A stretch of DNA of 64,000 nt, taken from Argopecten irradians (Eukaryota > Mollusca > Bivalvia > Pectinida > Pectinidae). The notes beneath the pieces are model-generated. The model was not told the origin of the DNA and searched no databases. It worked only from the letters and a program-made list of their open reading frames with translations. Numbering within the stretch: the stretch's first letter is position 1; each line of letters starts with the position of its first letter. This document shows positions 28,301 to 61,754 of this stretch, piece after piece. The position numbers and the translations under genes were made by a program. The stretch lies in NCBI RefSeq assembly GCF_041381155.1, contig NC_091135.1, positions 51,969,997 to 52,033,996 of the forward strand, given 5' to 3'.

Positions 28301-31300
28301 GCTATGTGGCCATGAGGTGATACCTACAATCTAAAATTAGATCTCTATCGCTCCTTGTTAACTGTCCACTCATAGAAGACGGTTGATGGTCTAACAAAGT
28401 CCACCAGTGGACCATCTATAAGGAGCGATATAAATATCTTATTTTAGATTGTAGGTGTCACCTAATTAGCTTGTTTCACCTTGTGTGCTTTTAATTTTAA
28501 TGCTATTGTTGAAAGTAAAATACAATATTTGTTTAAACATATTGGCTTTTTTGGAAGTCAAAATTTCAATCTCTATATGATTGACAGGATATGTTCGTAT
28601 TAATGTTTAGCATAATTAGGCCACTTATCTACTGGTCGATACAAATAATATCATATCAATCCCCATTTATTTTAAAAGTTCAACTTTAGTCATCTCCATG
28701 GGGACAATGATCCTTTCAGAAGCTACAGAATGCACCATTACATGGTCTATCCTACCTGCTGGTCCTTGTGATGGACCATGTGTGTCTTGAGCTGGAAATA
28801 TGTCCTAAACTTTGCATTACAGTACTGACACAGGTACGAGTTGTCTACAACGACCTTCACCTTCGTGTTCTCTGCATCATCTGGTGGCTAAAAATACAAC
28901 AAAACTAAATATGTGAAATATGGTTTTGTCTGATTATTTGTTTTATAGGTCTGCCTGGTCATTTGTCTGAAGAAGGCAACAATGTACACATTGTACTAGT
29001 TATCGAAAAATGTCACACTTGCTGTGTAACAAATATCATTTTTGAATTTTCCTATCAATAAGGCTATCTTGTAAGTAACTGGAATCGGCTGAATCAAATT
29101 AAGCTACGTTAAAAATTAACAAATAAGACAAGTGCGATGTACATTTGTATAGTATGCAAAGAAGTTTTCATGGTACAGAAAATTCCATTCCTACTGTCCA
29201 TGCTCTATAAGAATAGATCTAAATATAACTTTTAACAATGAAGATACTATTGATACTTGCTATTGAAATGTTTTAGCAAATGTAACACTGTATCTAGCAA
29301 ACCTACGATGACCGTTCTGTAGGACGAATCCTCTGGAGTCCAGAACGGAAGGTGACAAGTAGTCGTAGCCATTTTTACCAGACTCTGAAAGGTCTTGGAA
29401 GGTCATATTCATTGAAGTAACATCTATATATGGTATGTATATATATATATACATGTATGTATATGACTTATAGTTATTTAAGGAATTCTTTGCCGGGGTT
29501 ACATAATTTACACATGCTCCATTATCATTATACCCTCATAACCTCAACAAAATAAAAATATATTCCTTATATTTACAGTTTTTCAAGTAAATGAATATTA
29601 TTTATTCTTGCAGCAGTTGTATATTTTTTTTTAAAATACCAATATCTTTTTCTCTCCCGTCTAGTCAAAGAATTCGATTGAACAGCTGATTGGAATCGAG
29701 TCATTCATATGTTCCCACCAAAAGTGGGGTCATGACCCTGCGTTGCTACACCATCAACTATTCCCGTAACAACAGAATCGCAGCGCGTGTTTTGTTATCA
29801 TTATACACTGATAATGATAAAACTAGAAAGCATGGTTATTGAGTCCATGTCAGTGCAAACTGTAAATATATGACGGTTTGACAGTTTTGTTCGTTTGACA
29901 TATACCAAATACTTGTAAGCTACATACATGTATGTATACATATCATTGTTCTCATACAGGCCATTATATTTTTCAAGGGTTTTTGTGTCGTCCATCTCCA
30001 CGTCTGCGTCATCTGGTTAATAAACATGTAAAACAAACCAACAAGTAAATTGTTTGTGGTTTTTCTCATGTGACATGTATATAAATATTTCATGAAGTAC
30101 TGTACGTTAATGATGCTACTGGTTACCTTTTCCTCCAACATCTGCCCCCCAGGTTCCTGTAATCCACACGGATCAACAACGGTCGGATCCACCATAGGAT
30201 TATTATCCATGACAACCACTTGTGGGACATCAGTAACATGAGCTAGAGAATCTTCATGAGCCAGCAGTTGGTTATGGTTCAGATCCTGAGATGGAGGAGG
30301 ATCCAGGGTGGAGTCCAAAGGAGGCTCATCTTCCTCAATCAAAAGGGGTGAGGGCTGACTTGGTAAGGTTGACCCCGCACCCGCAGGCCATACCTAAAAC
30401 AGCAAAAGAATTTGATGAATACAATGTAATTAACTTAATAAAATAAAAAAGAAGCAAAAAGAACACAACTTGATATTAAGGTAAATTAAGTTAAGAACTT
30501 ACAGATAATTATCACAGAAGTGAAAACCGACATCTTTTCCTTTGAATCAAATACATGTACATTGTATTCTTATGCTCATACTGCCCAACTGATCTTTCTT
30601 TAAAGCTTCTTTCAAAAGGTGGATGAATTATATAAAATATAACACATTAACCAGACTTGAATGTGGCTGGTTTATCAATAGAGTAATAGAAATTCTAGTA
30701 TTTTACAATATTGTATTTACCTTGTGTGTTGCCATATGTTTTTTGACATTAGATTTCTGTGCAAATGCTCGTCCACAAACAATGCACTGAAAAGGTTTTT
30801 CTCCTGTGTGTGCCCGTATATGCTGGTTAAGGTCAAAGTTTTTAGAAAATGTTTTATCACAGTAGTTACAGCGAAGTTTTTTCTTCTCGTCCAATACCAT
30901 GTTACCATTTTTACTACGTTTTAGCTTCACTAGAGAGTCTGCTGACACAACTGTGACCAGACTAGCTTGGGCAGATTTTCTTCCTGTAAGAGTGAAATGT
31001 ATGCTATGTATTTTCAACAAAATCTTATGTACAGTGGAACCTCCCAAAACCGAACCTTCTCAAAACCGATCACCTCTAGAAACCGAACATTGATGTCATG
31101 TACGGAATGAATTCCTCTTTATTAATAGTATATAAAACTTCCCAAAACCGATCCCTCCCAATTCTGAATACCGGACCGATTTTGAGATCGGAATAGTCAA
31201 ATGTAACTAAAATACACTTCTGAAAACCGGCCTACCCTGAGCGACACCGATAGATTGCATTGAGGTCTGATCAACCGACCGTGAAATACACACATACCTG

Positions 31301-34215
31301 TACCATAGTTAATGCATGTCATGTCCTTGGGCATGTATACCGATTGGAAGGCTATAGGTACACAGTAATTATACCTGAGATGGTGGTGTAATTATTTAAT
31401 CATGCCTATTGTTTAGATATCTAACGAAGGTCTACCATGTGCACGCGGTTTGTTTAATGTAGGAAAACAAGCAGAGCTAGTAATAAAGAGAAAGTTTCGT
31501 ATTCAAATCACACTTTGTTTTATTTACATATGTAGTTGTCGGATAACGTAAATTATCTGTATGAAGAAGCCGAAGCCATGTATTGTTTTAGAAAATGACT
31601 ATGTCATATAATGATCGTGTAATTAGACCATATAATTTGATTCTTGACGTAACCGGAATCGATCGGTCGTATGTAGGTTGCAGACGAGAACATCCCCAAG
31701 AACATTCACGCAACTAACTAACTAAACTACGTTTATAAGCGGTAACAAAGTCAAGTTTGCTGTAATCCATTCCTTTTAAACGTATGATTCTCTCTTTTGT
31801 GATAACATTCACATTAACAATCAATATTGGTCGGTTTTAACGAACACTAGGCATACATGCTGTGCACTAATGTAAAAAAACGACTTCTGATCGATTAAAT
31901 CCGGATCGTGATGATCGGTATTCGGTTCACTTCTCCAAACCTAACCCTCTCTAAACCGGCCGAAATTATATGCACCGACCATGATCGGTTTCGGGAGGTT
32001 CCACTGTATATTCAGAAGATATAAGTTTAGGATACATTTAATCAGTAAAACTAGATTTCAGTAGACATATTCAAAAGAGGATATGTATATAGTGAACTGG
32101 AATACACGTAGTCATATTTGAACAAAATTCTTCTTATGAATAGTTAATCAAATCAAATAGTGACACCATACAAGCATTTGGTCGACTCACCTGCCTTTGT
32201 TGGACTAGGTTTGGCTATGTTGCCCATATTAGGAGCTATAGGTTTCTCAGGAAGTGTTGTCAAGGTAATTTGTTGTTGTACAGGCTGTAGGTGAATTTGA
32301 TTGGTCGAATGAACGGTGCTGGTGAATGCAGAGCCACTGGAAGGCAGTGATGTTGTCACAGGGCTTAGGATGGTGACATTGTTTGGTGACCTTGAAGTAA
32401 AATTTGCCACTTGAGACAGGAATGGACCAGCTGACTGTAAAGTTGAGGCTTGCTATAAAAACAAAAGATGAGCATAGCATGAAATCTGTTCTGATTGATG
32501 ATTTATGATCAAAGCATAAAATTAACAAGAAAGAATACTACAAGAATTGAAAGAATACCAAGTGTACAGAGCTTGTTGTTTCTTAATGTTGGGACTTTAT
32601 AGAACATCAAGGTAGGTAATTCTTTGTAAAAACTGTGTCATTAAACATAGGTCTTTGGCTGACAGTTTCTCCCTGAATGTAAGAAGCAGTGTACTACCAG
32701 TATTTTCTTGATGTTGTACAGAGACGGTCACCTGGTCCCAATATCATCAATGTTGTAAGGAAATTCTTTTCATTAATGTTCCTAAATGATAATTCTTTAA
32801 TTTAAAATTCTCTAAAGGAGGCTAAGGAATGAAGATAATGCAATAATTTCAAGCATCATCAAAGTAAGCTTTCAACATCTTCTCTACTGACAATTTTTAT
32901 CATTTTGCTTTCGGTGGGCATGAGGACCACTTGATCCACAACAGCTCCGAGATTAACGCCATCCTGGATGCCACTGACGAAAACCACTAAATTTATGGCT
33001 TTTGCGGAGAAGATGTTGCTGATAGTATCTATGACCCCTTCAAAGATTGTGAAGACAAATCTGTTCCGTCTTCAAATATACAAACGGTCCTTTTTAGGGC
33101 CACCAATAGCCACAAAAAATTGCTTAAGTATGACTATACTTGGACGTTTTACATCTAACTAAACATCTTGAAGACATAATGAAGTCTTACCAGTTGAATA
33201 GCTGATGTGTCCACATTAGCAAAAGACATGAGATCATCAGTAAGGACCATGTTCTGTGGCAGCTGGGTGATGGAGGTCTGAGGTGTATAGGAGGTCTACA
33301 ACACATGGTAACAGCATTGAGTCAAACCATAATAGAAATGAAAATTGATATCTTCTTGTGATGCATCTAAAATCATATGCTTAATTGTCATTAATAATAC
33401 CATGTTAAGTACATAATTGATATGTTGAATCAATAATATAGCAAATAAAAATTTCTAATAAAATTTGGCTTAATGATTTTTAAGTTTGAAACTAAGGATA
33501 GATATTAAGATTTAGATTTCAATCTGATCAAAGCCCCAGGGAGGCAGAGCCTACAATTAGGTATAAAGATATCAATTGAAATTTGTTATTAATAATTATA
33601 CCAGGCATTATAGTCTACATTAAGGTGTAGAGGAATCAATTAATATCCTTTATTAATAAGTATACCAGGCTTTAAAAAGATTAAGTGAATCAAGATTTGC
33701 CTCTATACCTGTATGAGTTGTGGCCCTTTATTGACATTTTGAATTAAGTTTGATGATACTGGTACGGTATTGACAGCACTTCCTATAGCGTTTGTCATCT
33801 GTTGTAGAGTTTTCTGAGCTATACATCGGCTCTGCTTGTGGTTTACAAAGGCACCAAGAGAAGTGAACTGCTTTTTACACTTCCCACATTGAAAGACATC
33901 ATCTTCATCAACTACAAATGTAAACAAATTAAATAAAAGATGAACAATCAAAAGTATAAAATGGATAATGTAAACATGTAGTCCAAGGCTGTGATTATAA
34001 CTAAACAAAATACAAACACTACAAATATACAAATTTATACTGGTTGATTCTCATTTATCTTTCTACCTTATCATTTACATGTAATATATTACCATACTAT
34101 ACCCTAGAATCAATTATTACAATGTATAAATGTCCCCAGGCCACTTACTTGGTGAAGCTTCAGTAACTGTAGACTCCAACAGAGACTGGACTGCCACCGC
34201 GGTCTGACAATCCAT
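25323..34215 (-). CDS. ZNF341: ZNF341 orthologue, 13-finger C2H2 transcription factor
   Basis: Nuclear DNA-binding factor; the human protein activates STAT3 and STAT1. Exons: 34223-34149 (ATG at 34215; [14 protein letters not shown] matches human MDNQTVLAVQSLLD), 33911-33709 ([15 protein letters not shown] finger), 33295-33191, 32452-32191, 30983-30721 (two fingers, ...[18 protein letters not shown]), 30393-30127 (acidic, Pro-rich), 28887-28756, 28256-28057, 27832-27672, 27171-26971, 26437-25323. All phases match, giving about 991 residues (human 854). Thirteen finger-like units are visible; the first ends in Cys instead of His, and one is split across the last intron ([13 protein letters not shown]). 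The C-terminal exon adds a basic [13 protein letters not shown] stretch and a long Gln/Thr/Val-rich tail. The first exon opens in-frame with SGM and has an acceptor before it, so a further upstream exon, not found, may supply the true start. No disruptions seen. Confidence 0.93.
28315..28463. mobile_element. Palindromic MITE in a ZNF341 intron
   Basis: The left arm is AGGTGATACCTACAATCTAA and the right arm, inverted, is AGGTGACACCTACAATCTAA. Further paired blocks ATCGCTCCTT and TGTCCAC/GTGGAC bring almost the whole 149 bp into one imperfect hairpin. No coding capacity. It lies between exons 28887-28756 and 28256-28057. Confidence 0.7.
29283..29427 (-). other. Possible extra ZNF341 exon (unsupported)
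   Basis: A minus-strand open stretch reads [18 protein letters not shown] and continues to LQNGHRR. It lies between ATATATAG, a possible acceptor, and a GTTTGC donor. Vertebrate ZNF341 has no matching segment, and the flanking exons (30393-30127 and 28887-28756) already join in phase 0 without it. It may be chance. Confidence 0.2.
29977..30013 (-). other. Possible acidic micro-exon of ZNF341 (unsupported)
   Basis: After a plausible acceptor (TTAACCAG) the minus strand reads [18 protein letters not shown] in one frame. That frame needs a one-base overhang from the previous exon, which ends in phase 0, so direct inclusion would not keep frame. Recorded because the acidic sequence resembles the neighbouring linker. 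Confidence 0.15.
31030..32008. mobile_element. Non-autonomous pogo-like TIR element, 979 bp
   Basis: The left end is TACAGTGGAACCTCCCAAAA and the right end is its inverse, GGGAGGTTCCACTGTA, at 31993-32008. CAGTGGAACCTCC resembles Tigger/pogo termini, and TA borders fit the target rule. Sub-terminal copies of AAACCGA recur inside both ends. No transposase frame survives. It sits in a ZNF341 intron. Confidence 0.8.
32859..33155 (-). pseudogene. Unidentified fossil coding segment in a ZNF341 intron
   Basis: The minus strand is open for 70 codons down to a TGA at 32861-32859, including [20 protein letters not shown] and [20 protein letters not shown]. The same frame continues upstream past one TGA (near 33072-33074) as [20 protein letters not shown] to a TAG near 33160. 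The plus strand also has a long frame here with one stop ([20 protein letters not shown]...), so the coding strand is not settled. No family was recognised. It is not part of ZNF341, whose exons splice around it. Confidence 0.35.
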
Positions 34216-34576
34216 CCCAGACACTGTAAAATACAACATAGCAATTAAAACATTCTGCTCAACAATCTTTAAAATCTTTTTCTCTTTTCAGTATATTTCT
34301 TGAAATAGTTTAATTTACAGGTATTCTCTAAAACATTAAACTGATTTCCTATTTTAGTATCATTTTAGCAGGAATAGGTAATTAATATTTTTCTTGAATT
34401 AATTGAATTAATAGGTGGAAATACCTTAGCTACTCATGAACCACAACCCCATTGAAATGATGATATTTTCATCATAGCTTATTAAAAGCTCCACTTAGCT
34501 ATTTCTCTTTTTCCTTTTATAAATGAATGTTTTGTTTTATTCCCTCTGCAAGTTGTAACCAAAAAGGATTTAATAA

Positions 34577-36475: not shown

Positions 36476-39400
36476 ATGGACCGGTGTATTATGTGCATCG
36501 TGTTGCTATTTGCTGCATTATCCGCGAACGGCGGTCACACAAAAGAAATACCAAATTTCATAGTCATGTTGATGGACGATGTGAGTTTCAGAATTTACAG
36601 GATATAACAAAACCACAGACAATGGTTATCATCAGAAACATCAGAAAATCACATTCTGACATTGACCATTTTGACAATACTTATATAGGCCTACAACAAA
36701 ACAAAATAAATGTCCATGTTTATATGTGCTCATTAAGATTACATATGCATTGTATGTTTCTGATATACCCTAATATGCCTATTTCCAATATCCTGATGAA
36801 ATAGAAGAGGCATCTAGCCCTCCAAAAGTTCTGTTTGCATATGTAAAAGTAAGTTGCAGACAGTTTATCTATGTGAAAACTCTAATAAGTTAGAGAAGAT
36901 AAATGATATACTGATGTCTGTATTAACAAGATTTACATTTGTCTTTACTTTATGTATATATGTAAAAATGCATGTGTAACAGAAATTTTGGAGGGCAGTG
37001 TACATTATTGAAACGGATGGTGTATGGGTTAGAAAGATGACCCAACTCGTCAAGTTCAGGAGTAGTGTTTATTATATTTATGACAGGAAAATATACCCTG
37101 CAACAACACAAACATTACTAACGTTACGATAACATTACATCAGGCGATACATCACACAAACAAGACAAACTAAAAGATCTGACATTTAAGATTATTTAAA
37201 TATGTACAATCAACAGGAAATAAGTTACACACTAAAAACATCCGGTCTAGGGATAGACGATGCGCTATACCACTATAATTTACTAAAGCTAACGATAACG
37301 TAATAATATATGGCTAAGGCAAGTACATTGTCACCATCGCAATGGACACACACAATTAGCAAATATATTAAAAACATAATAATCATCTCTGTGTGGCAGA
37401 AGGCATTCAAGAAAGTGACCCAGCCACAACGCTAACTAGTGTTTGACTAATGCGTTCACAACACCTGGAATAGTAAATGAATAAAAATACAATCAGAACG
37501 GCCGGTATAATTGCGACCACTCGGGTAACCCGCGTACACATAAACATTATTTTTATCAAAAAACGTAAACATAATAATAATTATACTGATTGTAAAAACG
37601 ACACGCCGAGGAGATACATGACATTAGAGAAATGGAGAAAATGATAGATATAAGCAGGTTAATACAAATAGATTTGACATACCTCTCTCTCTGACCACCA
37701 TTCCAAACGTCTGGTCATTGTCTGGTCAGTCAAGCGGCCAGAAAGCATACCAAATATACATAACCAATAAAAATTGGTTACACATGACATCATATTCGCA
37801 GATATACAAAACGCATATACCAAACAATATATGTTAAATTTAATAAAATACAACCCCGCTACATATATATGTGAGCAAAAGTATACATGTACTGCATGAT
37901 ATACAATGTAGCTATATATGGGCCTAGCAAGAATCAAAATGAGGTACATACATATAGGCAAATATATGTCTTATATGCATGGTAGCTACACATTTATTAT
38001 AAATTTTTATTATTTTTCTTCAGACCTCCGGACATAAAAATGTGATTTGATAATGAGTAAATAAATAATATATATACATACTGCATAATGAAAAAAGAAA
38101 AATATAGCTTATATAGTATAATGATCAATGATAAGAATTTTAGAAATTTTATAATTTATTATATCAAATTATATCTAATTTGATATAATGTATAACATGG
38201 TGACGAATGTGGTGTAATATATATAACTGTCCGTCCGTCCGTCCGTCCGTCCGTCCGTCCGTCCGTCCGTCCGTCGTCCGTCCGTCCGTCGTCCGTCCGT
38301 CCGTCCGTCCGTCCGTCCGTCCGTCCGTCCGTACGAATGGTTTCCGGAGCATAACTCTAAAACCAGTAGAGATATTTCCACGAAACTTCATACACACATT
38401 GGTCTTATGGTCTAGTAGTGCCTTTTGCTATTTTAAGGTTTTCACGTTTTGTACTTTTTTCTGTAACCATGGAAACATTGCTGAAAATAGCAGATTTTTG
38501 TACCAGGTTCGTTTCCGGAGCATAACTCTAAAACCAGAAGAGATATTTCCACGAAACTTCATAGACACATTGGTCTTATGGTCTAGTAGTGCCTTTTGCT
38601 ATTTTAAGGTTTTCACTTTTTGTACTTTTTTCTGTAACCATGGAAACATTGCTGAAAATGGCAGATTTTTGTGTAAGAATCGTTTCCGGAGCACAACTCT
38701 AAAACCAGCAGAGATATTTCCATGAAACTTCATAGACACATTGTTCTTATGGTCTAGTAGTGCCTTTTGCTATTTTTAGGTTTTCACTTTTTGTGCTTTT
38801 TTCTGTAACCATAGAAACATTGCTGAAAATATCATATTTTTGTAGCAGGTTCATTTCCGGAGCATAACTCTAAAACCAGCAGAGATATTTCCACGAAACT
38901 TCATAGACACTTTCTTTTTATGGTCTAGTAGTACCTTTTGCTATTTTCAGGTTTTCATTTTTTGCACTTTTTCCGTTACCATGGAAACATTGCTGAAAAT
39001 ATCATGGTAAATGGTAAATGTTACTTTGCAAAACTCCACCCATCTTTGTGTATATAGTCTTAATATAAATTAATGTCAAGGCTGTATACCTGATTCAACA
39101 ATTGCAGCCCCACTCTACTTGAATTATACTCCATCTTTCTTTAGCTCAACTTCCTTTTTCCTGTTTTTTTTTCATACACATAAGTCTCTACAATCAAACT
39201 TACTTCAGCTTTGATATCTCCATTGGCGGGGGATCTGAATGACTATGTCCTTGTTTATTTTATGATACATGATAAGTTCTAATGAGTAAACATGTTTCCC
39301 TATGTAATACAGCATCTACGTTGGGTCAACTGTTCCAGGTATTGGCTTTCATACCCAAATATTGACATATCCCGATGTACTGCTATATTAACTCGCCAAT

Positions 39401-42400
39401 AATCTCTGTACAGAGTTGATTCCTAAGACTCCAATAAACGTATCGTACCATCCACTGAATCTGTGTTGGAGTTCTACATCTATACACACCACAACAATTA
39501 ACCTACGAAACTACACGAAGATATAAACATCATACTATAAAATCAGTTGTGTTATATAAAATCTTGTTGTTCACAAGCCAAGCATGCTTAATACTATATT
39601 ATTAAATTTTGCTTAAATGAAATTAATTAATCCTGCCGATACAATATCTTTAAAAAAAAAATAGAAGGCCTAATATATAGGCAGATTTTGTGACCGACAG
39701 ATTGAATACTGCAAACTGTCACCTAAAACCACAATTTGCCTATTTCTGTAACATATGGATATCAAACGGATTTTGTTGACTATAGGAAGTGGTTTAATTT
39801 TAACGAACTGGTAATAGCATTCTGTTATTTGAACAGATGGGATGGGGAGACCTTGGAGTGTTTGGTGAGCCCAGCAAGGAGACACCAAACCTGGACAGGA
39901 TGGCTAGTGAAGGAATGCTGTTAACAGACTTCTATTCCGCAAATCCTCTGTGCTCACCATGTAAGTATACCTGCATAATACAAATATATGTATACATACA
40001 GAATAATTATATATCTGAACTTGTATTTGGTTCTGGTAATATCATGTAGACATTTGTAATCAAGCCAGTAAATAATATTATGTTCCACAGTTGTAAGCAT
40101 TGATGACTTATTATCCCACTAAATTTGTTATAGCTCGTGCAGCCATGATGACTTATTACCCTACTAACTTTGTTATAGCTCATGCAGCCATGATGACAGT
40201 TGTAAGCATTGATGACTTATTCCCCTGCTAATTTTGTTATAGCTCTTGCAGCCATGATGACTTATTACCCTGCTAACTTTGTTAAAAGTCGTGCAGCCAT
40301 GATGACAGTTGTAAGCATTGATGACTTATTACCCCGCTAGTTTTGTTTTAGCTCGTGCAGCCATGATGACAGTTGTAAGCATTGATGACTTATTACCCCG
40401 CTAACTTTGTTATAGCTTGTGCAGCCATGATGACTTATTACCCTACTAATTTTGTTCTAGCTCGTGACATGATGACAGTTGTAGGCATTGATGACTTATT
40501 ACCCTGCTTACTTTGTTATAGCTTGTGTAAGCATTAATGACTTATAACCCCGTTAACTTTGTTATAGCTTGTACAGCCATGATGACTTATTTCCCTGCTT
40601 ACTTTCTTAAAGGTCGTGCAGCCATGAAGACTTATCACCCCGTTAATTTTGTTATAGCTCTTACAGCCATGATGACTTATTTCCCTGCTAACTTTGTTAA
40701 AGGTCGTGCAGCCATGATGACAGTTGTAAGCATTGATGACTTATTATCCCGCTAGTTTTGTTTTAGCTCGTGCAGCCATGATGACAGTTGTAAGCATTGA
40801 TGACTTATTACCCCGCTAACTTTGTTATAGCTTGTGCAGCCATGATGACTTATTACCCTACTAATTTTGTTCTAGCTCGTGACATGATGACAGTTGTAGG
40901 CATTGATGACTTATTACCATGCTTACTTTGTTATAGCTTGTGTAAGCATTAATGACTTATAACCCCATTAACTTTGTTATAGCTTGTACAGCCATGATGA
41001 CTTATTTCCCTGCTTACTTTCTTAAAGGTCATGCAGCCATGAAGACTTATCACCCCGTTAATTTTGTTATAGCTCTTACAGCCATGATGACTTATTTTCC
41101 TGCTAACTTTGTTAAAGGTCGTGCAGCCATGATGACAGTTGTAAGCATTGATGACTTATTACCCCGTAAACTTTGTTATAGCTCTTGCAGCCATGATGTC
41201 TTATAACCCTGCTAACTTTGTTCTAGCTCTTACAGCCATGATGACTTATTTCCCTGCTAACTTTGTTAAAGGTCATGCAGCCATGATGACAGTTGTAAGC
41301 ATTGATGACTTATTACCCTGCTTACTTTGTTATAGCTTGTGTAAGCATTAATGACCTATTACCCTATTAACTTTGTTATAGCTTGTACAGCCATGATGAC
41401 TTATTTCCTTGCTAACTTTCTTAAAGGTCGTGCAGCCATGACTTGATGACTTATTACCCCGCTAACTTTGTTCTAGCTCATGCAGCCATGATGACAGTTA
41501 TAAGCATTGATGACTTATTACCCTGCTAACTTTGTTATAGCTCATGCAGCCATGATGACTTATTATCCCGCTAACTTTGTTATAGCTCGTGCAGCCATGA
41601 TGACAGTTGTAAGCATCGATGACTTATTACCCCGCTAACTTTGTAATAGCTCGTGTAGCCATGATGACAGTTGTAAGCATTGATGACTTATTTCCCTGCT
41701 AACTTTGTTAAAGGTCGTGCAGCCATGATGACAGTTGTAAGCATTGATGACTTACGCTGCGTACTTTGTTCTAGCTCGTGCAGCCATGGTGACAGTTGTA
41801 AGCATTGATGACTTATTACCCTGCTAACTTTGTTATAGCTCATGCAGCCATGATGACAGTTGTAAGCATTGATGACTTATTACTCTGTTAACTTTGTTCT
41901 AGCTCGTGCAGCCATGATGACAGTTGTAAGCATTGATGACTTATTACCCTGCTAACTTTGTTATAGCTCATGTAAGCATTGATGACTTATTACCCTGCTA
42001 ACTTTGTTATAGCTCATGCAGCCATGATGACAGGAAAACTCCCTATCTTATGTTCAACAGTTGTAAGCATTGGTGACTTATTACCCCGCTAACTTTGTTA
42101 TAGCTCGTGCAGCCATGGTGACAGTTGTAAGCATTGATGACTTATTACCCTGCTAACTTTGTTATAGCTCATGCAGCCATGATGACATTGTAAGCATTGA
42201 TGACTTATTATCCCGCTAACTTTGTTATAGCTCGTGCAGCCATGGTGACAGTTGTAAGCATTGATGACTTATTACCGCGCTAATTTTGTTCTAGCTAGTG
42301 CAGCCATGATGACAGTTGTAAGCATTGATGACTTACGCTGCGTACTTTGTTCTAGCTCGTGCAGCCATGGTGACAGTTGTAAGCATTGATGACTTATTAC

Positions 42401-45400
42401 CCTGCTAACTTTGTTATAGCTCATGTAAGCATTGATGACTTATTACCCTACTAACTTTGTTATAGGTCGTGCAGCCATGATGACAGTTGTAAGCATTGAT
42501 GACTTATTACCGCGCTAACTTTGTTCTAGCTCGTGCAGCCATGATGACAGTTGTAAGCATTGATGACTTATTACTCTGTTAACTTTGTTCTAGCTCATGC
42601 AGCCATGATGACAGTTGTAAGCATTGATGACTTATTACCCTGCGTACTTTGTTCTAGCTCATGCAGCCATGGTGACAGTTGTAAGCATTGATGACTTATT
42701 ACCCTGCGTACTTTGTTCTAGCTCGTGCAGCCATGGTGACAGTTGTAAGCATTGATGACTTATTACCCTGCTAACTTTGTTATAGCTCATGTAAGCATTG
42801 ATGACTTATTACCCTGCTAACTTTGTTATAGCTCGTGCAGCCATGATGACAGTTGTAAGCATTGATGACTTATTACCCCTCTAACTTTGTTATAGCTCGT
42901 GCAGCCATGATGATAGTTGTAAGCATTGATGACTTATTACCGCGCTAATTTTGTTCTAGCTCGTGCAGCCATGATGACAGTTGTAAGCATTGATGACTTA
43001 TTACCCTGCGTACTTTGTTCTAGCTCGTGCAGCCATGGTGACAGTTGTAAGCATTGATGACTTATTACCCTGCTAACTTTGTTATAGCTCATGTAAGCAT
43101 TGATGACTTATTACCCTACTAACTTTGTTATAGCTCGTGCAGCCATGATGACAGTTGTAAGCATTGATGACTTATTACCCTGCTAACTTTGTTCTAGCTC
43201 GTGCAGCCATGATGACAGTTGTAAGCATTGATGACTTATTACCCTGTTAACTTTGTTCTAGCTCATGCAGCCATGATGACAGTTGTAAGCATTGATGACT
43301 TATTACCCTGCGTACTTTGTTCTAGCTCGTGCAGCCATGGTGACAGTTGTAAGCATTGATGACTTATTACCCTGCTAACTTTGTTATAGCTCATGTAAGC
43401 ATTGATGACTTATTACCCTACTAACTTTGTTATAGCTCGTGCAGCCATGATGACAGTTGTAAGCATTGATGACTTATTACCCTGCTAACTTTGTTCTAGC
43501 TCGTGCAGCCATGATGACAGTTGTAAGCATTGATGACTTATTACCCTACTAACTTTGTTATAGCTCGTGCAGCCATGATGACAGTTGTAAGCATTGATGA
43601 CTTATCACCCTGATAACTTTGTTCTAGCTCGTGCAGCCATGATGACAGGAAGACTTCCTATCAGAAATGGGTTCTACTCCACTAATGCCCATGCTAGAAA
43701 TGGTAAGTCAGCAACGTAATGTTGAAGTTTTCTTGAACTTTGAGAAAGGGACTGTTTATACAGTTGTGGTTGTTGTTACTTGTTGTATACATCTTTGAAA
43801 CCCAACAGTCAATTAAACTTATTTGCACTGGATGACATATGCCTGGATCTAGGTTGAGTATTCATCTTTATTTTATGCAGAGAGTTAATGTTTAATATTT
43901 ATATTTTTATTCACTATTTCCTTTCAATTTCCAGCATACACACCCCAAGACATAATGGGAGGAATTCCTGACTCTGAGATACTTCTGCCAGAACTTCTTA
44001 AACAGTCGGGATACCACACTAAACTTGTTGGTAAATGGTAAGAAACTTCAGCTTTTGATATTGAGGTTGTCACCTAACTTAGACAAATTTCCATTTCGCT
44101 TGTCTCCCCTTCAAAGAATCTCTGTCCCAATGCTTTATATCTATGAGGCTTTATGGTCACCTCATTCTATAGTTTTTACCCTTGGAGTGGTCACTGGCAA
44201 CAAAGCTGTAGGAGAAAAAATGAAAAACTTTGGAGTTTGAACTGCACCTAAAGAAAATACCCAAAAGCAGAAGCTTCACATGTTGTTATCACAGAATCCT
44301 TGTGTGTGTGTTCAACATTTTGAACAATTGTAAAGCAAAATGGTCAATGATCACTTGTTGCCTAAGCAATCTTGAAATTTAAAAATCAGTCTTTGTCACA
44401 GACTTTTCATTAGAATTGTGAGATTGAATGTCCATGATCATTGTAAATCATGTATACCGGTAAAATGTATAGGCTTAATTTCTTTGATGCAGAGTTTTGT
44501 TTATTTTAACTCATGTTTAATTTGGAAATTTTAAATCAAAACCAATATCTGGTATCAAAAACATCAGAAGTTAATTATTTTCATTGCTTCATGGAAATAT
44601 CTTGATCTTTTTCAATAAAGCTACAATCTTTGTTCAAGGCATCTAGGTCAGCAACCTCAGTATCATCCCCTACGACATGGCTTTGATGAATGGTTTGGTT
44701 CCCCGAATTGTCACTTTGGGCCGTACAATGATGTCAATACTCCTAATATTCCAGTCTACCGGGATGCTGTCATGGCTGGCAGGTTTGTACTTAGACTGTC
44801 GGAAAACAGTCTTCAGACAACCTTCATTTTGCATGATTTATATTGTGACTTTTATTCTAAGACTGGTACCTTTGGATGATGATCTTGACATAACTAACAT
44901 GGTTAGGTAGTGTTTATGTAGTATGACTGTGCTTGACATTAAGGGAATGTGACGTTAACAAAATTATTCTGCTGAATTCTGAATTCTGGAATTCTGGTGA
45001 CCTTGACATCACCAGATTTCGTTGTGTGACCTTGATACTACTTGATTCTGTATGGTGGTCTTAGTTATTAACACTACTTGATTTGATACTTACGATGACC
45101 CTGATTATTATTTGAGGTACTTATTAACTTGGTGCATAAATATTGTAACCTCATGAGTAGTGACTCTGACATCAAAATATATGTTATGGGTACTGATATG
45201 TCACATTGTTACTAGTTACGATAACTGATACCTTATAAGAAATGAAAACCTTTACATTACAGATACTATGAAGAGTTTCAGATTGACAAAAGGACTGGAT
45301 TATCTAACCTGACCATGTTATACTTAGATGTAGGTATGACCAAGCTCTGGTACTAGGTCTCATCAGACATTTTATTGGTGTGTTAATTATTTAAAGCAAA

Positions 45401-48400
45401 TACTGATACTTCTACATTCTTCCCTCTTTTTCGGGTTCAGTTGAATATATGGGAGTTATCATTCTTCCCTCTTTTTGGGGTTCAGTTGAATATATGGGAG
45501 TTATCATGACCAGGCTTTGAGTACTGTCTTATGTATTATATTTTCCTGTTACAAGTTTAATAGGCTACCTTTGTGGTATCTAAGTAAGTATCACATATGT
45601 TATCTTTGCAGGAAGCTATTCAGTTTATTAAACAACAACATTTAAAGAAGCAGCCATTTTATTTGTACTGGACTCCCGATGCCACACATGAGCCCTTGTA
45701 TGTGTCTGAGAAGTTCTATAACACCAGCCAGCGTGGTCTGTAAGTAATGTTAAACCTGTTTAGTTCTGTTTTTTCTGTTTTTAAAGTCTAATTAAATGGT
45801 AGTTGTAGTATATGTAAAGTCGTTGTACTTGGTCTGTCGCCATCCATGATCCTTCATCAGCTGTCAACTGCACATGTGTAAATTCCATATTGTCCCTATT
45901 ATTGTCCTCTAATAAGGGTGCCCCCAGTTTTTTTGCTGAAAAAAATCAACTAATTTCATACAATTTTTTTGCCAGATTGTGACGATTTGTCTTTGTAGAC
46001 GCTAATATAATACTGTTTCACATCAATCTGATGCTTAACAGATATCCGATCAGCTATAAATTTATTGCATTGGGCAACTTAGGACATCTTTGCCAAGTGT
46101 TTACACATAGAAACAGCGAGAACGCCATGTTCAAAACAAAATGTGTCACTTGAATGCTCCACACACGTGAATGGATGAAGAATAACTGGCAACAACATTT
46201 TAGCGATGTCTATACAGGTTTTATGAATACTTACTGTATATGTATGATAAAGGTTCCAAAATAACAGGAATGTTATCATTTCTAAGCATTTTATTGTGTG
46301 CTCTTGTCGGTATTTCCCATCTGCCACAAAACGAAAGTAGCGATCGAAAGAACCGTCCGCCATTTTGTGTACGCATGTTAAACAAACAGGCTAGCATGAA
46401 ATGCCAAAATTTTATGAAACAGACTTATTTAACCAATGTTTAATACTTCTGGTGCATACATTTTGTCATAATTATGTAATTTCAATACTTACTTGACTTC
46501 AAAACGTAAGTTGGTTATAGTAAGTTTCAGAAAAATACGAAACTAAAAGCAAGAGTACTGTAGTCTGTTTCAGAAAAAAACATCTAAAAATGGTCTCAAA
46601 TAACGGCGCCCCCTTAGCCATTTACCCTGCCCCGGCGCCCTCATTAGAGAAAATACGGTATTTCATTCAAATAAGTTCATCTTCAATAACGGAAAGGCAC
46701 AGTACACTGATATAGAAACTTTAGCATGGTGGGAAAAGCTACCAAATTTGTTCAAATGGGCTAAAATCTTTAAATGATTTCTTGTCAATAACTAGAGATC
46801 TGATTTTGGGCCTGTAGCATGATTGGATGAAAGGCTATCAATTGCATGTTCGTTTAAATAGATGACCTTGACTTTCATTCAAGGCCACAAGGGTCAAATT
46901 GGCTAAAATCATTGAAGTAGTGGTACGCAATGTACTTCTTTTCAATAACTAAGAGGCCTAGAGAACTGGAAAGTCTATGATAAATATCCCACACATGAGA
47001 CATATTTGACTTAGTTAGAATGTATGTATTATGATAAAGGCCTTGAGGTATCAGAATTGTAGATTAGGATATTGGTTTGAATATGAACTGTTGTTTTCTG
47101 ACCAGATATGGCGATGCAGTTCGAGAACTTGACTATGCTGTGGGGGAAATCCTGAAAACTTTGGTTACTCTTGGGCTTGATAAGAACACATTTGTATTCT
47201 TCTCCTCTGACAATGGAGCAGCAACATATGCAAAAACATCAGGTAAATGTTAAAATTGTCAGGTAGATAAGTTGTTGTTTAGGAGATTTAAAACATTGGA
47301 TAAATTTATTGTTTATGTCATCTTCCTCTAAGATAAATGTTGTTTATGATAGTTGTATGATGTTTGACCTTGGTGATTCGTATTTCTATGGGAAGTGAAA
47401 AATGGACTAGACTATGCTGCAAGATACATTAATTAATTGTGTTGACTTACATACTACTAAATCAGAAAGAAAAATGTTCATGGCACCCTAATGGGCGCCA
47501 TTTTATTTATCTTTCTACTTTCTACTTTAAACGTATTTCCAAACAGGGGGTAGTAATGGTCCATATCTTTGTGGAAAGGAGACAACCTTCGAGGGTGGTA
47601 TGAGAGAACCTGCTATAGCATGGTGGCCGGGAAAGATCTCGTCGGGCCAGGTAAGGACCAATCACAAGCTAGATGTCCTATATCTTCATTCAGTCTGTAA
47701 GTGTTAATGCTGTAAGGCCATCTGAGATAAAGTATCAAAACTAGGGTCATATGTGTATCAAATAACAATTTTCGTTTCATTTCTTTACATGGTACTGAAA
47801 CAGTACCTCTTTATAATGAACCATTGGGATTAATCAGATTACATATTTGAAATAAAATTGTCAAAAACAATGGAGAGTTGGTAATACTAAGCATTAGAAA
47901 ATGAACAGGTGTGTCTAGGCCAGGTGGAAAAGTGATATACCTGTTGTTTATATTTTGACTTGTATGCCATCAGGTGATATATGTTGATGATAAATCTGTA
48001 GAATTTTTCATGTGTTGCTGATGATAGAATTCTTGATATGCAGATAATGCGTGTGTGGAATAAACAATAAAACTTGTACATTTGACAGGTATCTCATCAG
48101 GTAGGATCTCTAATGGACCTATTTCCTACTATACTAGACTTCCTTGGACTCAAACCTCCTTCTGACCGAATTATTGATGGAATCAGTCTCAAGGATACAC
48201 TATTCCAAAACACTGGAGTTCAAAGGTAACTTGTATCTCTAAATCCATGTATCAAGGAATATCATGTTCTTATTATTTTCTAAGACAAGCATGTTTTTTC
48301 TGATTAGCCAACAATGAAAAGAATGCTCTATACTAGAAATCTACTTTCTCGCTAAACTTCTTTTCTCATACACATGGGCAGGTTTCAAATATGACAAAGT

Positions 48401-50461
48401 GTGAGTCCTCATGTTAAAACTTCTCCTACCACGGTACTAGTGACTGAACGGATTACAGAAGTTGTGAAGTTTCCCTATGTGTATTCACCCTATTTGAAAT
48501 GAAGAGGGAAAATATACTTTTTCCATTGACTGACATAGGTTATTCTATGGAGGGCACCAAGATCCCTCTGGGATCTCTTAGGTTTAATACAGGGTATACA
48601 TACATATATGTGATGTTATATTTCAGGCCACTGTTTTATTACCGAGGAAATACATTAATGGCAGTGCGTCTGGGTCAATATAAGGCTCATCTTTGGACGT
48701 GGACAAACTCTATACAAGAATTTAACAGGGTCAGTATGTATATACATCATAAATATCAGTTTAAGTGATCTGGACACAGGTTGATACTGCTAAACGTTTC
48801 TGTTCATCACTAAAGATTTCTTTTTGCTGTCTTATACCTGGAATCATCTTAATGTCCTATTAAGTGTTGTCATTTGTTTTCATAGGGAGTGAACTTTTGT
48901 CCAGGACAGGAGATACAGAATGTCACAACACATGACCAGACTCAGCATGACCCGCCATTACTGTTTGATATCAACAGAGACCCAGGCGAGAAATACTTCA
49001 TCAAGTAATTTATTTTTTCATTTTGTATAGATTTTATCTGATGTTCTGTAATTGCATACAGTATTACAGTTAACTGCCCTTACAGATAGGTAGTGATTGT
49101 GATGCCATGTGTTTGCGAACACAACATCAGTTTTACTCACAAAATAATAATGTCATAATAGATACATGCAAGGGAAGTAACTCTATGAAATGGATTTTCA
49201 GCCATAGTAATGATCTACTGTTATGCTAGTGCTATCTGAGGAAATAAAGTTGTGTCTGTCCTTACATCCTTTCTCTCCAATACCTCATCCTCCGACAATA
49301 AACACAACACAATAATATTAATCGTATCATTTATTGTGTGTAGTGTATAGTTTTGTATAAAGCGTAAAGTTATCTGACAGTTACTAATGTACCAATCGTG
49401 CATCACATAACTTTCTCTCACTCAAACATATTCGTCTTCTATGTACCTTCACTTTTGCCATACTGTATAATTATTATAATATTCAACAAAGAAGTTCAAA
49501 CAAATTCCAAATTGAATGTTTTATATAAAAAAAAAAACCATGAAGGGGTCAAAGCAACTATCGCCGAGTGACAGTCACATGTACAGTACCCCACATCTAA
49601 CATCATGTGGGCCACACACTCATATACTGCTTTCCTATTACACTGAAGAGAAAATAGTAGTGTTGCATGATACTGGATGCGAGGGATTTACATATATGAA
49701 GTATATTAATTGTGAAATCATTTAATTGTCTTATAGAGTAACACAATTGATTTCAAAACAAAATTTTCTCATTGACACATATGTAATATTAATTCTGAGG
49801 AGAAAACTCTGAATAATAAAAGATGATAATTTGAACTTCAGACCTAATTCAGAGGAGTACCGGAGTGTGATGCCAGAGATACAGTCTGCTGTAGCAACAC
49901 ATATCAAGCATCTAGTACCAGGCACACCACAGTTAAACATGTGTGATGAAGCTGTTATGGTAAGGTCAAAGGTCATTGCTTGTATCATGTGTGTATATCA
50001 AAAATAGGTAAGTCTTTCAGAAGTTAATGAAAGTAACCATTAACGGATTTGCATTTGTTCAATGGTTTAAATTTTAATAATACATTTACCATCTTGATGG
50101 TATGTATATGCTGCAGGACCAATATAAGCTTTAGTTTTATTGAGAGTTTTTATTGAAAGTGCTAGCTTCTTAAAAACTTTTTCACTTTGATTGAATTCGG
50201 GTATCCGCCATTCAAGCATGATGCAGGCCTTATGTACATGTTCTCACCCTTGTGAATTTTAAGATTAAAGTAAGGGTTAATGACCATTGGAATGCTAGTG
50301 GATCAGTGGTAAACTCTGAAGCATGACATGAATTAAAATAATCTATTTTACTGTTATTTCTTTTATGTTTCTAGAACTGGTCACCTCCTGGTTGTGAAAG
50401 GTTAAACAAGTGTTTGACACCACCTGCCTCAAAACCTTACAAGTGTACATGGCCTCATTAG
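36476..50461 (+). CDS. GALNS: GALNS orthologue, N-acetylgalactosamine-6-sulfatase
   Basis: Lysosomal sulfatase that removes 6-sulfate from GalNAc/Gal of chondroitin and keratan sulfate. Exons: 36476-36580, 39837-39960, 43628-43702, 43935-44037, 44639-44782, 45263-45329, 45612-45739, 47106-47242, 47547-47650, 48089-48225, 48627-48729, 48886-49004, 49842-49959, 50375-50461. All junction phases agree, giving 516 residues (human 522). Residues 1-19 form a signal peptide. Metal and catalytic residues are all visible: D34-D35 (LMDDMGWGD), C74-S-P-S-R78 (Cys becomes formylglycine), K135, H137, H232, D284-N285, K305. N-glycosylation sequons at N199, N243 and N421 are visible, the first and last near human positions. 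The active-site motif is split by intron 2 between P76 and S77, and intron 2 holds the exon-derived satellite. No disruption seen. Confidence 0.96.
36815..36998. mobile_element. MITE in GALNS intron 1
   Basis: The left arm CCCTCCAAAAGTTCTGTT (36818) and right arm AACAGAAATTTTGGAGGG (to 36995) are inverted with one mismatch. Inner CATATGTAAAA/TGTAAAAATGCATG blocks extend the pairing weakly. About 180 bp, non-coding; no clear target duplication. Confidence 0.6.
37000..38228. other. GALNS intron 1 interior
   Basis: AT-rich intron sequence. Open stretches near 37659-37961 (minus) have no recognised domain and no flanking exon logic. Nothing further is supported. Confidence 0.5.
38230..38333. repeat. 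(CCGT)n microsatellite
   Basis: About 25 CCGT units with two 3-base interruptions (CGTCGTCC). Open frames on both strands (Pro-Ser-Val-Arg or Thr-Asp-Gly-Arg repeats) are produced by the 4-bp period and are not genes. It directly abuts a 171-bp tandem array. Confidence 0.95.
38334..39010. repeat. 171-bp tandem repeat, four units
   Basis: TTTCCGGAGCATAACTCTAA recurs at 38341, 38512, 38683 (one change) and 38854, an exact 171-bp spacing. Units also share AGAGATATTTCCACGAAACT and CCATGGAAACATTGCTGAAA. The array begins at the CCGT microsatellite and lies in GALNS intron 1. A 172-codon frame across it is spurious. Confidence 0.9.
40091..43627 (+). repeat. Satellite built from GALNS intron-2/exon-3 junction
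   Basis: Roughly 55-60 units. The common form is 64 bp: TTGTAAGCATTGATGACTTA, TTACCCTGCTAACTTTGTTA, a TAG acceptor, then CTCGTGCAGCCATGATGACAG. The last block equals the first 21 bases of GALNS exon 3 (43628 onward), and the preceding block equals the intron end before it. Shorter classes of about 45 bp (CATGATGACTTATT joint) and about 42 bp (CTCATGTAAGCATT joint) are interspersed. A block of about 415 bp at 40338 is repeated at 40753. The array's last unit is the genuine acceptor and exon 3. Short open frames inside are shadows. Copy number may be compressed in an assembly. Confidence 0.93.
42013..42060 (+). repeat. Unit retaining a longer exon-3 copy
   Basis: After a TTATAG acceptor this unit reads CTCATGCAGCCATGATGACAG then GAAAACTCCCTATC, matching exon 3 (GAAGACTTCCTATC) for 35 bases with three substitutions. 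It then passes to TTATGTTCAACAG, which matches the unique intron sequence just before the array (TTATGTTCCACAG, 40079-40090). It keeps both edges that ordinary units have lost. Confidence 0.85.
45415..45505. repeat. 45-bp tandem duplication in GALNS intron 6
   Basis: ATTCTTCCCTCTTTTTCGGG followed by TTCAGTTGAATATATGGGAG occurs twice in tandem with one base difference (TTCGGG/TTGGGG). This is a recent local duplication away from the splice sites. Confidence 0.9.
46680..46980 (-). repeat. Inverted, diverged copies of the 145-bp unit
   Basis: On the minus strand, CCTTGAATGAAAGTCAAGGT and GCCAATTTGACCCTTGTGGC resemble the 20.9-23.2 kb array unit. About two diverged units lie in GALNS intron 7. 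No element ends are visible. Confidence 0.6.
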
Positions 50462-53830: not shown

Positions 53831-54461
53831 TGATGTTTTTTTTTCTCTCACAGTAATTATGTCCTATCAATACTTCCTGTTAATGGCAGGTTATATGGAG
53901 ATTGAACAGTGTTTAGGAATGATGTTTTTTTCTCTCACAGTAATTATGTCACTATCAATACCTTCCTGTTAATGGCAGGTTATATGGAGATTGAACAGTG
54001 TTTAGGAATGATGTTTTTTTCTCTCACAGTAATTATGTCACAATCAATACCTTCCTGTTAATGGCAGGTGAACAGTGTTTAGGAATGATGTTTTTTTCTC
54101 TCACAGTAATTATGTCACTATCAATACCTTCCTGTTAATGGCAGGTTATATGGAGATTGAACAGTGTTTAGGAATGATGTTTTTTTCTCTCACAGTAATT
54201 ATGTCACAATCAATACCTTCCTGTTAATGGCAGGTTATATGGAGATTGAACAGTGTTTAGGATAGATTGAACAGTGTTTAGGAATGATGTTTTTTTCTCT
54301 CACAGTAATTATGTCACTATCAATACCTTCCTGTTAATGGCAGGTTATATGGAGATTGAACAGTGTTTAGGAATGATGTTTTTTTCTCTCACAGTAATTA
54401 TGTCACAATCAATACCTTCCTGTTAATGGCAGGTTATATGGAGATTGAACAGTGTTTTGAT
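53831..54461 (+). repeat. 89-bp tandem array, seven units
   Basis: GATGTTTTTTTCTCTCACAG recurs at about 53831, 53921, 54010, 54087, 54176, 54286 and 54374. One unit lacks about 12 bases and one has a 21-bp internal duplication. Units otherwise differ mainly at CACTATC/CACAATC. Each contains a pyrimidine tract plus CAG that would pass as a splice acceptor, but no exon lies nearby. Confidence 0.92.
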
Positions 54462-55446: not shown

Positions 55447-58400
55447 ACAAGAGGCCCAGAGGGCCTGTATCGCTCACCTGGTTTGTAATGTCAAGTCATG
55501 TTCTGAATACAGGTTCATTGTTTCTTTTCTGAAGGAATTTGAATATTTACCTCTTATTTCCCTATTGGGCCCCGCCCCTCCTGCCCCCGGGGGGGGTCAG
55601 AGCCAAAATTTATACAAGTTCTGTTCCCCTTCCCCCAAGGATGTTTGTGGCCAAATTTGGTTACAATCCATGCAGAACTCTAGGACAAGTAGCGATTTAT
55701 AGGATTTACCTCTATTTCCCCTATTGGGCCCCGCCCCTCCTGCCCCAAGGGTCTGAGCCAAAATTTATACAAGTTCTGTTCCCCTTCCCCCAAGGATGTT
55801 TGTGGCCAAATTTGGTTACAATCCATGCAGAACTCTAGGACAATCAGCGATTTATAGGATTTACCTCTATTTCCCCTATTGGGCCCCGCCCCTCCTGCTC
55901 CCGGGGGTTCAGAGCCAAAATTTATACAAGTTCTTTCCCCTTCCCCCAAGGATGTTTGTGGCCAAATTTGGTTACAATCCATGCAGAACTCTAGGACAAG
56001 TAGCGTTTTATAGGATTTACCTCTATTTCCCCTATTGGGCCCCGTCCCTCCTGCCCCCAGGGGGATCAGAGCCAAATTTTATACAAGTTCTTTCCCCCTT
56101 CCCCCACGGATGTTTGTGGCCAAATTTGGTTACAATCCATGCAGAACTCTGGGACAAGTAGCGATTTATAGGATTTACCTCTATTTCCCCTATTGGGCCC
56201 CGCCCCTCCTGCCCCCGGGGGGTCAGAGCCAAAATTTATACAAGTTCTGTTCCCCTTCCCCCAAGGATGTTTGTGGCCAAATTTGGTTACAATCCATGCA
56301 GAACTCTAGGACAAGTAGCGATTTATAGGATTTACCTCTATTTCCCCTATTGGGCCCCGCCCCTCCTGCCCCCGGGGAGTCAGAGCCAAAATTTATACAA
56401 GTTCTGTTCCCCTTCCCCCAAGGATGTTTGTGGCCAAATTTGGTTACAATCCAAGCAGAACTCTAGGACAAGTAGCGATTTATAGGATTTACCTCTATTT
56501 CCCCTATTGGGCCCCGCCCCTCCTGCCCCCGGGGGGTCAGAGCCAAAATTTATACAAGTTCTTTCCCCCTTCCCTCAAGGATGTTTGTGGCCAAATTTGG
56601 TTACAATCCATGCAGAACTCTAGGACAAGTAGCGATTTATAGGATTTACCTCTATTTCCCCTATTGGGCCCCGCCCCTCCTGCCCCCGGGGGGTCAGAGC
56701 CAAAATTTATACAAGTTCTGTTCCCCTTCCCCCAAGGATGTTTGTGGCCAAATTTGGTTACAATCCATGCAGAACTCTAGGACAAGTAGCGATTTATAGG
56801 ATTTACCTCTATTTCCCCTATTGGGCCCCGCCCCTCCTGCCCCCAGGGGGTCAGAGCCAAAATTTATACAAGTTCTTTCCCCCTTCCCCCAAGGATGTTT
56901 GTGGCCAAATTTGGTTACAATCCATGCAGAACTCTAGGACAAGTAGCGATTTATAGGATTTACCTCTATTTCCCCTATTGGGCCCCGCCCCTCCTGCCCC
57001 AAGGGTCAGAGCCAAAATTTATACAAGTTCTGTTCCCCTTCCCCCAAGGCTGTTTGTGGCCAAATTTGGTTACAATCCATGCAGAACTCTAGGACAAGTA
57101 GCGATTTATAGGATTTACCTCTATTTCCCCTATTGGGCCCCGCCCCTCCTGCCCCCGGGGGGTCAGAGCCAAAATTTATACAAGTTCTGTTCCCCTTCCC
57201 CCAAGGATGTTTGTGGCCAAATTTGGTTACAATCCATGCAGAACTCTAGGACAAGTAGCGTTTTATAGGATTTACCTCTATTTCCCCTATTGGGCCCAGC
57301 CCCTCCTGCCCCCAGGGGGATCAGAGCCAAAATTTATACAAGTTCTGTTCCCCTTCCCCCAAGGATGTTTGTGGCCAAATTTGGTTACAATCCATGCAGA
57401 ACTCTAGGACAAGTAGCGATTTATAGGATTTACCTCTATTTCCCCTATTGGGCCCCGCCCCTCCTGCCCCCGGGGGGTCAGAGCCAAAATTTATACAAGT
57501 TCTGTTCCCCTTTCCCCCAAGGATGTTTGTGGCCAAATTTGGTTACAATCCATGCAGAACTCTATGACTAGTAGTGATTTAAAGGATTTACCTCTATTTC
57601 CCCTATTGGGCCCCGCCCCTCCTGCCCCGGGAGTCAGAGCCAAAATTTATACAAGTTCTGTTCCCCTTCCCCCAAGGATGTTTGTGGCCAAATTTGGTTA
57701 CAATCCATGCAGAACTCTAGGACAAGTAGCGATTTATAGGATTTACCTCTATTTCCCCTATTGGGCCCCGCCCCTCCTGCCCCCGGGGGGTCAGAGCCAA
57801 AATTTATACAAGTTCTTTTCCCCTTCCCCCAAGGATGTTTGTGGCCAAATTTGGTTACAATCCATGCAGAACTCTAGGACAAGTAGCGATTTATAGGATT
57901 TACCTCTATTTCCCCTATTGGGCCCCGCCCCTCCTGCCCCCGGGGGGTCAGAGCCAAAATTTATACAAGTTCTGTTCCCCTTCCCCCAAGGATGTTTGTG
58001 GCCAAATTTGGTTACAATCCATGCAGAACTCTAGGACAAGTAGCGATTTATAGGATTTACCTCTATTTCCCCTATTGGGCCCCGCCCCTCCTGCCCCCAG
58101 GGGGTCAGAGCCAAAATTTATACAAGTTCTTTCCCCCTTCCCCCAAGGATGTTTGTGGCCAAATTTGGTTACAATCCATGCAGAACTCTGGGACAAGTAG
58201 CGATTTATAGGATTTACCTCTATTTCCCCTATTGGGCCCCGCCCCTCCTGCCCCAAGGGTCAGAGCCAAAATTTATACAAGTTCTGTTCCCCTTCCCCCA
58301 AGGATGTTTGTGGCCAAATTTGGTTACAATCCATGCAGAACTCTAGGACAAGTAGCGATTTATAGGATTTACCTCTATTTCCCCTATTGGGCCCCGCCCC

Positions 58401-61400: not shown

Positions 61401-61754
61401 CCGGGGGGTCAGAGCCAAAATTTATATATATACAAGTTCTGTTCCCCTTCCCCCGAGGATGTTTGTGGCCAAATTTGGTTACAATCCATGCAGAACTCTA
61501 GGACAAGTAGCGATTTATAGAATTTACCTTTATTTTCCCTATTGGGCTGCGCCCCTCCTGCCCCCGGGGGGTCAGAGCCAAAATTTATACAAGTTCTGTT
61601 CCCCTTCCCCCAAGGATGTTTGTGGCCAAATTTGATTACAATCCATGCAGAACTCTATGACTAGTAGCGATTTAAAGGAAATGTTGAACGGACGGACGAC
61701 GGACGCCGCGCCATGACATAAGCTCACCGGCCCTTAGGGCAAGGTGAGCTAAAA
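55447..61754 (+). mobile_element. 6.3-kb Helitron-like element, ~39 157-bp units
   Basis: The left end is ACAAGAGGCCCAGAGGGCCT plus GCTCACCTGG. About 39 head-to-tail 157-bp units follow with high identity (blocks CCCTATTGGGCCCCGCCCCT, CCAAAATTTATACAAGTTCT, CCAAATTTGGTTACAATCCA, GGACAAGTAGCGATTTATAG). The right end has GACGGACGACGGACGCCG, hairpin GGCCC-TTA-GGGC and AGGTGAGCTAAAA. Since 157 is one more than a multiple of three, the frame rotates each unit and produces dozens of overlapping 65-125-codon open frames that are not genes. Helitron/HINE ('pearl'-like) nature is inferred. Confidence 0.85.

Follow-up and report, generated by a model that had tools for sequence, protein, structure and literature searches.

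A mirage-type minisatellite of splice-junction copies in an intron of a scallop GALNS gene

How does a gene come to carry, in a single intron, 61 tandem copies of the splice junction at which that intron ends, and how could it still yield an intact protein? The question is raised by the gene for N-acetylgalactosamine-6-sulfatase (GALNS) in the bay scallop Argopecten irradians, which lies in a 64,000-nucleotide stretch of contig NC_091135.1 (positions 51,969,997 to 52,033,996, forward strand; hereafter the window). We consider it likely that the array in GALNS intron 2 is a minisatellite of the ‘mirage’ type that arose locally when the intron 2/exon 3 boundary was duplicated, then grew and was homogenised in blocks, and that it has no coding role and is tolerated as neutral sequence. 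With it, mirage minisatellites, described in lancelets, would be known from a mollusc as well. The array stands out by its copy number of 61, by its higher-order repeats and by what is probably the founder unit, and it offers a natural experiment on acceptor choice: in a gene whose reading frame is intact, 62 similar 3′ splice sites follow one another.

Junction copies in GALNS intron 2

The gene model (36476–50461, plus strand) has 14 exons that encode 516 residues with no internal stops, and all 13 introns have GT–AG ends. Human GALNS ranks first among 84 matched PDB sequences (4fdi; residues 25–516; E = 4.1e-234), and among the best 120 of 7,910 database matches the top three come from scallops (Pecten maximus, 88%). 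The C-S-P-S-R signature is invariant across eight aligned sequences. Its cysteine is encoded in exon 2, and its serine codon is split by the exon 2/3 junction.

A minisatellite of 61 junction copies abuts the real exon 3 and ends in register with the real acceptor (Table 1), at the place where a sequence-only reading of the window had put it with a slightly lower count (about 55–60). Units were delimited by splitting the array at the acceptor. Upstream of the real junction they measure 64 bp (32 units), 45 bp (14), 46 bp (8) and 61 bp (4), with single units of 50, 63 and 91 bp. The register of the acceptor AG is kept in 60 of the 61 copies. The 21-nt start of exon 3, CTCGTGCAGCCATGATGACAG, is reproduced exactly in 12 copies, with one mismatch in 21, with two in 4 and with at least three in 24; within two mismatches it is found in 37 of 61 copies over all 21 nt and in 49 of 61 over the first 19 nt. 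The units are not uniform, a point on which the sequence-only reading needs correction, and the eight of 46 bp retain only about six exon bases. With the final base of exon 2 added in front, the copied exon part reads S-R-A-A-M-M-T, which contains the R-A-A-M-M-T assigned to it earlier; only part of the signature is copied, as its cysteine lies outside exon 3. At up to three mismatches, a 24-mer that spans the unit matches the window at 34 places, versus none in 100 dinucleotide shuffles.

Other splice-like signals occur in many units. GTAAG follows the copied junction in 42 of 61 units, a branch-point-like CTNAY precedes the copied acceptor in 43 of 61, and most 64-bp units have a donor-like GTAAGC 23 nt past the acceptor.

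Table 1. Coordinates of GALNS and of its junction array within the window
Feature	Position	Strand	Basis and remarks
GALNS exon 1	36476..36580	+	Gene model
GALNS exon 2	39837..39960	+	Gene model and alignment to human GALNS (4fdi); ends in ...CSP plus T of the Ser codon; donor CAT|GTAAGT
GALNS intron 2	39961..43627	+	Gene model; 3,667 bp
Left flank of array, TTATGTTCCACAG	40078..40090	+	Copy reappears inside the 91-bp unit
Minisatellite, 61 copies of the intron 2/exon 3 junction	40087..43627	+	Tandem repeat and unit analysis
More diverged part, 415-bp higher-order repeat (8 units)	40210..41668	+	Period 415, 87% matches; lag-8 minimum
91-bp unit, probable founder	42001..42091	+	Junction copy and 14 further exon 3 bases joined to left-flank copy
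More homogeneous part, 302-bp higher-order repeat (5 units, 4 × 64 + 46 bp)	42189..43648	+	Period 302, 92% matches
Real GALNS exon 3	43628..43702	+	Gene model and alignment to human GALNS; donor ATG|GTAAGT
GALNS exons 4–14 (11 exons)	43935..50461	+	Gene model; stop codon 50459–50461

Origin and growth of the array

The array appears to be unique to its gene. In a search of the 845.8-Mb genome that skips very common words, a 1,001-bp array probe matched the GALNS locus only, with six matches that all fall in the array and its exon 3 junction. Nor was the unit core (up to three mismatches) found in 22 sampled 10-kb pieces of the genome (220 kb; 20 from the window’s contig, C2, and 2 from contig C1).

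The single 91-bp unit points to how the array began. Past the 21 exon bases it continues with GAAAACTCCCTATC, which is identical at 12 of 14 positions to the exon 3 bases that follow, and this piece is joined to TTATGTTCAACAG, identical at 12 of 13 positions to the left edge of the array. Neither the left-flank piece (at least 12/13) nor the deeper exon 3 piece was matched equally well on either strand of the window’s 60 kb outside 40001–44000. Because the left flank and deeper exon 3 occur together in one unit and are unmatched at that quality elsewhere in these 60 kb, a 91-bp boundary stretch was most likely duplicated first, and this unit is probably the original unit of duplication.

On this basis we propose that the array began with the duplication of a stretch that runs from the left flank in the intron as far as base 35 of exon 3, in an intron 2 that would until then have had a single junction and the flank TTATGTTC...ACAGTTGTAAGC. 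A 27-bp deletion would then have produced the 64-bp unit, and deletions of 19 and 18 bp would have turned this into the 45- and 46-bp units. The 27 bp that separate 91 from 64 fall between two ACAG direct repeats, and the 19 bp that separate 64 from 45 fall between two TGATGAC direct repeats. As the likely founder is still present in the array, the birth of a minisatellite can here be followed stepwise. The earlier proposal that the array derives from the gene’s own junction and not from a transposon is borne out by this unit of local pieces and by the single locus matched by the probe.

Later growth has left a gradient. The mean difference between neighbouring units is 0.168 in the first 30 units versus 0.089 in the rest, and the sequence distance of units from the real junction drops towards the exon (Spearman’s rho = −0.51, P = 2e-5, a guide only because the units are related). 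This pattern suggests that the array was enlarged and homogenised in blocks of 415 and 302 bp, most recently at the exon side. Within the exon-derived part of the copies, codon position 3 is invariant whereas positions 1 and 2 vary (0.157 and 0.260), the opposite of coding constraint; judging from the column counts, CpG loss in the arginine codon would account for much of this. SRAAMMT can still be read in 13 of the 61 copies.

Comparison with known systems

Amphioxus ‘mirages’ are tandem, minisatellite-like duplications of intron–exon boundaries, described in Adh3, the globins BflGb6 and BflGb9, PGBD5 and troponin C (PMC3087553, PMC3902484). In the passages of these papers that describe them, the Adh3 units are 10–72 bp long and the BflGb6 mirage joins the 3′ end of the intron to the 5′ part of exon 2, in six and three units (150–160 bp) in two haplotypes (PMC3087553, PMC3902484); mirage length is unstable, and polymerase chain reaction with reverse transcription suggests that regular splicing is undisturbed (PMC3087553).

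At the structural level, the GALNS array is a mirage. All 61 units span the boundary and hold, in the register of real exon 3, the end of the intron and the start of the exon, the latter cut to about six bases in eight of them; splice signals are present in many copies (AG in 60 of 61, GTAAG in 42 of 61); the origin is local and gene-specific, as we word it, with one locus matched by the probe (common words skipped) and a founder made from local flanks; and concerted evolution is seen within the cluster, in its 415- and 302-bp blocks and its more homogeneous 3′ half. Copies at unrelated loci, the mark of a dispersed satellite, were not found by the probe or in the 220 kb sampled. Boundary-spanning tandem units, retained splice signals and concerted evolution are shared with the amphioxus mirages as these are described in the passages cited; the acceptor-side layout is that of BflGb6, and the units are comparably short to those of Adh3. 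The sequence-only reading knew of no described system of this kind; as BflGb6 has the same arrangement (PMC3902484), that judgement is not supported. In contrast to the amphioxus cases, the host is a mollusc and not a cephalochordate, the copies number 61 versus six and three in the described BflGb6 haplotypes, and the array is set apart by two higher-order repeats and by a probable founder unit that is still present. A search of the open-access literature, with subscription papers mostly outside its scope, showed no mollusc mirage among the papers listed.

Another mollusc minisatellite offers a partial parallel. Intron 3 of an abalone TSSK1-like gene contains a polymorphic minisatellite with a 27-bp unit (PMC6905558), which is likewise intronic and of many copies. 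The GALNS unit differs from it in being made of a splice junction, of which the abalone passages make no mention.

Splicing across the array

With read-through from the acceptor into exon 3, the full GALNS protein can be produced from only the last of 62 acceptors, and dozens of near-perfect false sites have to be bypassed. Splice matrices were built from the gene’s own sites (12 acceptors, with that of exon 3 left out, and 13 donors). By this measure, 42 of the 61 copies equal or exceed the real exon 3 acceptor. Each of the 61, if used with read-through into exon 3, leads to a premature stop. The GTAAG sites in the array are for the most part weak: 35 of 44 are GTTGTAAGC, with a score of 4.0 versus 6.2–11.8 for the 13 GALNS donors. 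Inclusion of micro-exons was rejected as a source of in-frame proteins, with a stop for each of n = 1–6 exons of 23 nt. The 3′ part of the array (43314–43627) showed no RNA folding beyond that of shuffled sequence (z = −0.01), on which ground RNA structure that hides the copied sites was rejected for this part.

We suggest that the copies have no coding role and that an exon recognised as a unit would select the last acceptor, because the copied acceptors have no full exon and strong donor behind them; stray splice products would carry stops and would be degraded. Most likely, GALNS can work because the sole full exon with a strong donor follows the last acceptor. The predicted 516-residue frame, intact through that acceptor, would be in keeping with regular host splicing of the kind suggested for amphioxus mirages.

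Several points weigh against this account of a tolerated mirage. The founder claim hangs on a single 91-bp unit, and it is possible that the 64-bp unit came first and that the 91-bp unit reflects a second, later event. The 46-bp unit corresponds to 64 minus 18 bp, where just a 2–3-bp repeat is found. The score of the real exon 3 acceptor is only −0.6, versus 7.0–14.0 for the other 12, and is reached by 29% of the 3,128 other AGs in the window; with such a low-scoring real site and with matrices from one gene, little weight can be put on the scores of any of these acceptors. Five array donors, CATGTAAGC, score 6.6 and exceed the weakest real donor, so pseudo-exons are possible. Finally, we infer both the use of the last acceptor and exon definition as its cause from the DNA.

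Alternative explanations

The array could instead be at work. The copied acceptors would then be decoys that determine how much of the splicing is unproductive, and copy number would tune GALNS output. This we regard as unlikely; cast as a copy-number-variable decoy of 61 acceptors, a tandem-repeat rheostat of unproductive GALNS splicing made from the gene’s own splice site, the idea is less likely still. It would explain why nearly all copies keep their AG, why so many score at least as high as the real acceptor and why every wrong choice with read-through gives a stop. However, many other columns of the unit are equally invariant, so retention of the AG is no sign of selection, and selection on the copied AG is unsupported. 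Unit length is variable, CTNAY is found in only 43 of 61 units and folding in the 3′ part of the array is like that of its shuffles.

It is very unlikely that the array is a step towards a new exon or intron formed by use of a copied junction, the route proposed for globins of amphioxus. In the idea of Rogers (1989) that introns are gained when AG/GT sites are duplicated internally, as cited in PMC3087553, splice signals are likewise duplicated within a gene. The amphioxus model is stated in PMC3087553, and the donor-like GTAAGC 23 nt past the acceptor of most 64-bp units speaks for such a step. The GALNS reading frame, however, shows no new intron or exon; each addition of one to six 23-nt exons yields a stop codon, and in the eight-sequence alignment no insert is seen at the position of the array in the predicted proteins of Pecten maximus and Ylistrum balloti.

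That a foreign satellite or transposon-borne repeat was inserted into intron 2 and captured the exon edge later is highly improbable, even in a genome whose sampled part is rich in tandem arrays and with a 157-bp satellite in the window and its flank. Every part of the unit is local (left flank, intron end and exon start), the probe matches GALNS only and the end of the array keeps the register of exon 3. Origin from a transposon or dispersed satellite was rejected on the single probe locus and the local flanks of the unit.

Least probable is an assembly artefact that inflated or invented the array: tandem repeats are difficult to assemble and the array is known from one assembly, but its units are set apart from one another by many substitutions and small deletions and form two distinct higher-order repeats, a diversity that argues that the array was not invented, although its copy number may be off.

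Repeat setting and related genes

Tandem arrays (at least 200 bp, period at least 15) make up 42,228 of the 220,000 sampled bases, and the part of PMC10225492 on repeats gives 21.7% tandem repeats for the scallop Amusium pleuronectes. In a genome so rich in tandem repeats, an array that by chance starts across an exon edge may be expected now and then.

Three other arrays were observed. A satellite of about 157 bp (unit ATTTACCTCTATTTCCCC..., up to 39 copies) occurs in the window at 55545–61679, 14456–16026 and 1495–1868 and at loci L007 (4162–6669) and L018 (1450–2928). An 89-bp unit array (also period 77) downstream of GALNS, at 53838–54457, contains the acceptor-like TTTTTTTCTCTCACAG. At locus L025 (7846–10000; about 66.008 Mb on C2), a 34-bp unit array, called as 68 bp × 32, carries the strong donor-like motif AACAG|GTAAGG; no adjoining exon is shown, and this could be a donor-side mirage.

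A GALNS-like protein of A. irradians encoded on contig C1 (P0003) aligns to the GALNS of the window at 74% identity and is apparently the product of a second GALNS-like gene. The protein predicted from the window locus itself was not found among the 120 best matches (8,000 candidates scored) or among 23 proteins of a second list, two sets that between them span candidates of about 109–903 residues; the public annotation may thus lack or break this gene model. A shortened Mizuhopecten model (P0121, 270 residues) was rejected as a clue to the array: it has SRAAMLT at exon 3 and diverges, by eye, only past the end of exon 6, and is thus uninformative. Upstream of GALNS, zinc-finger-like open frames on the minus strand (25323–34220) apparently, by eye, belong to other genes.

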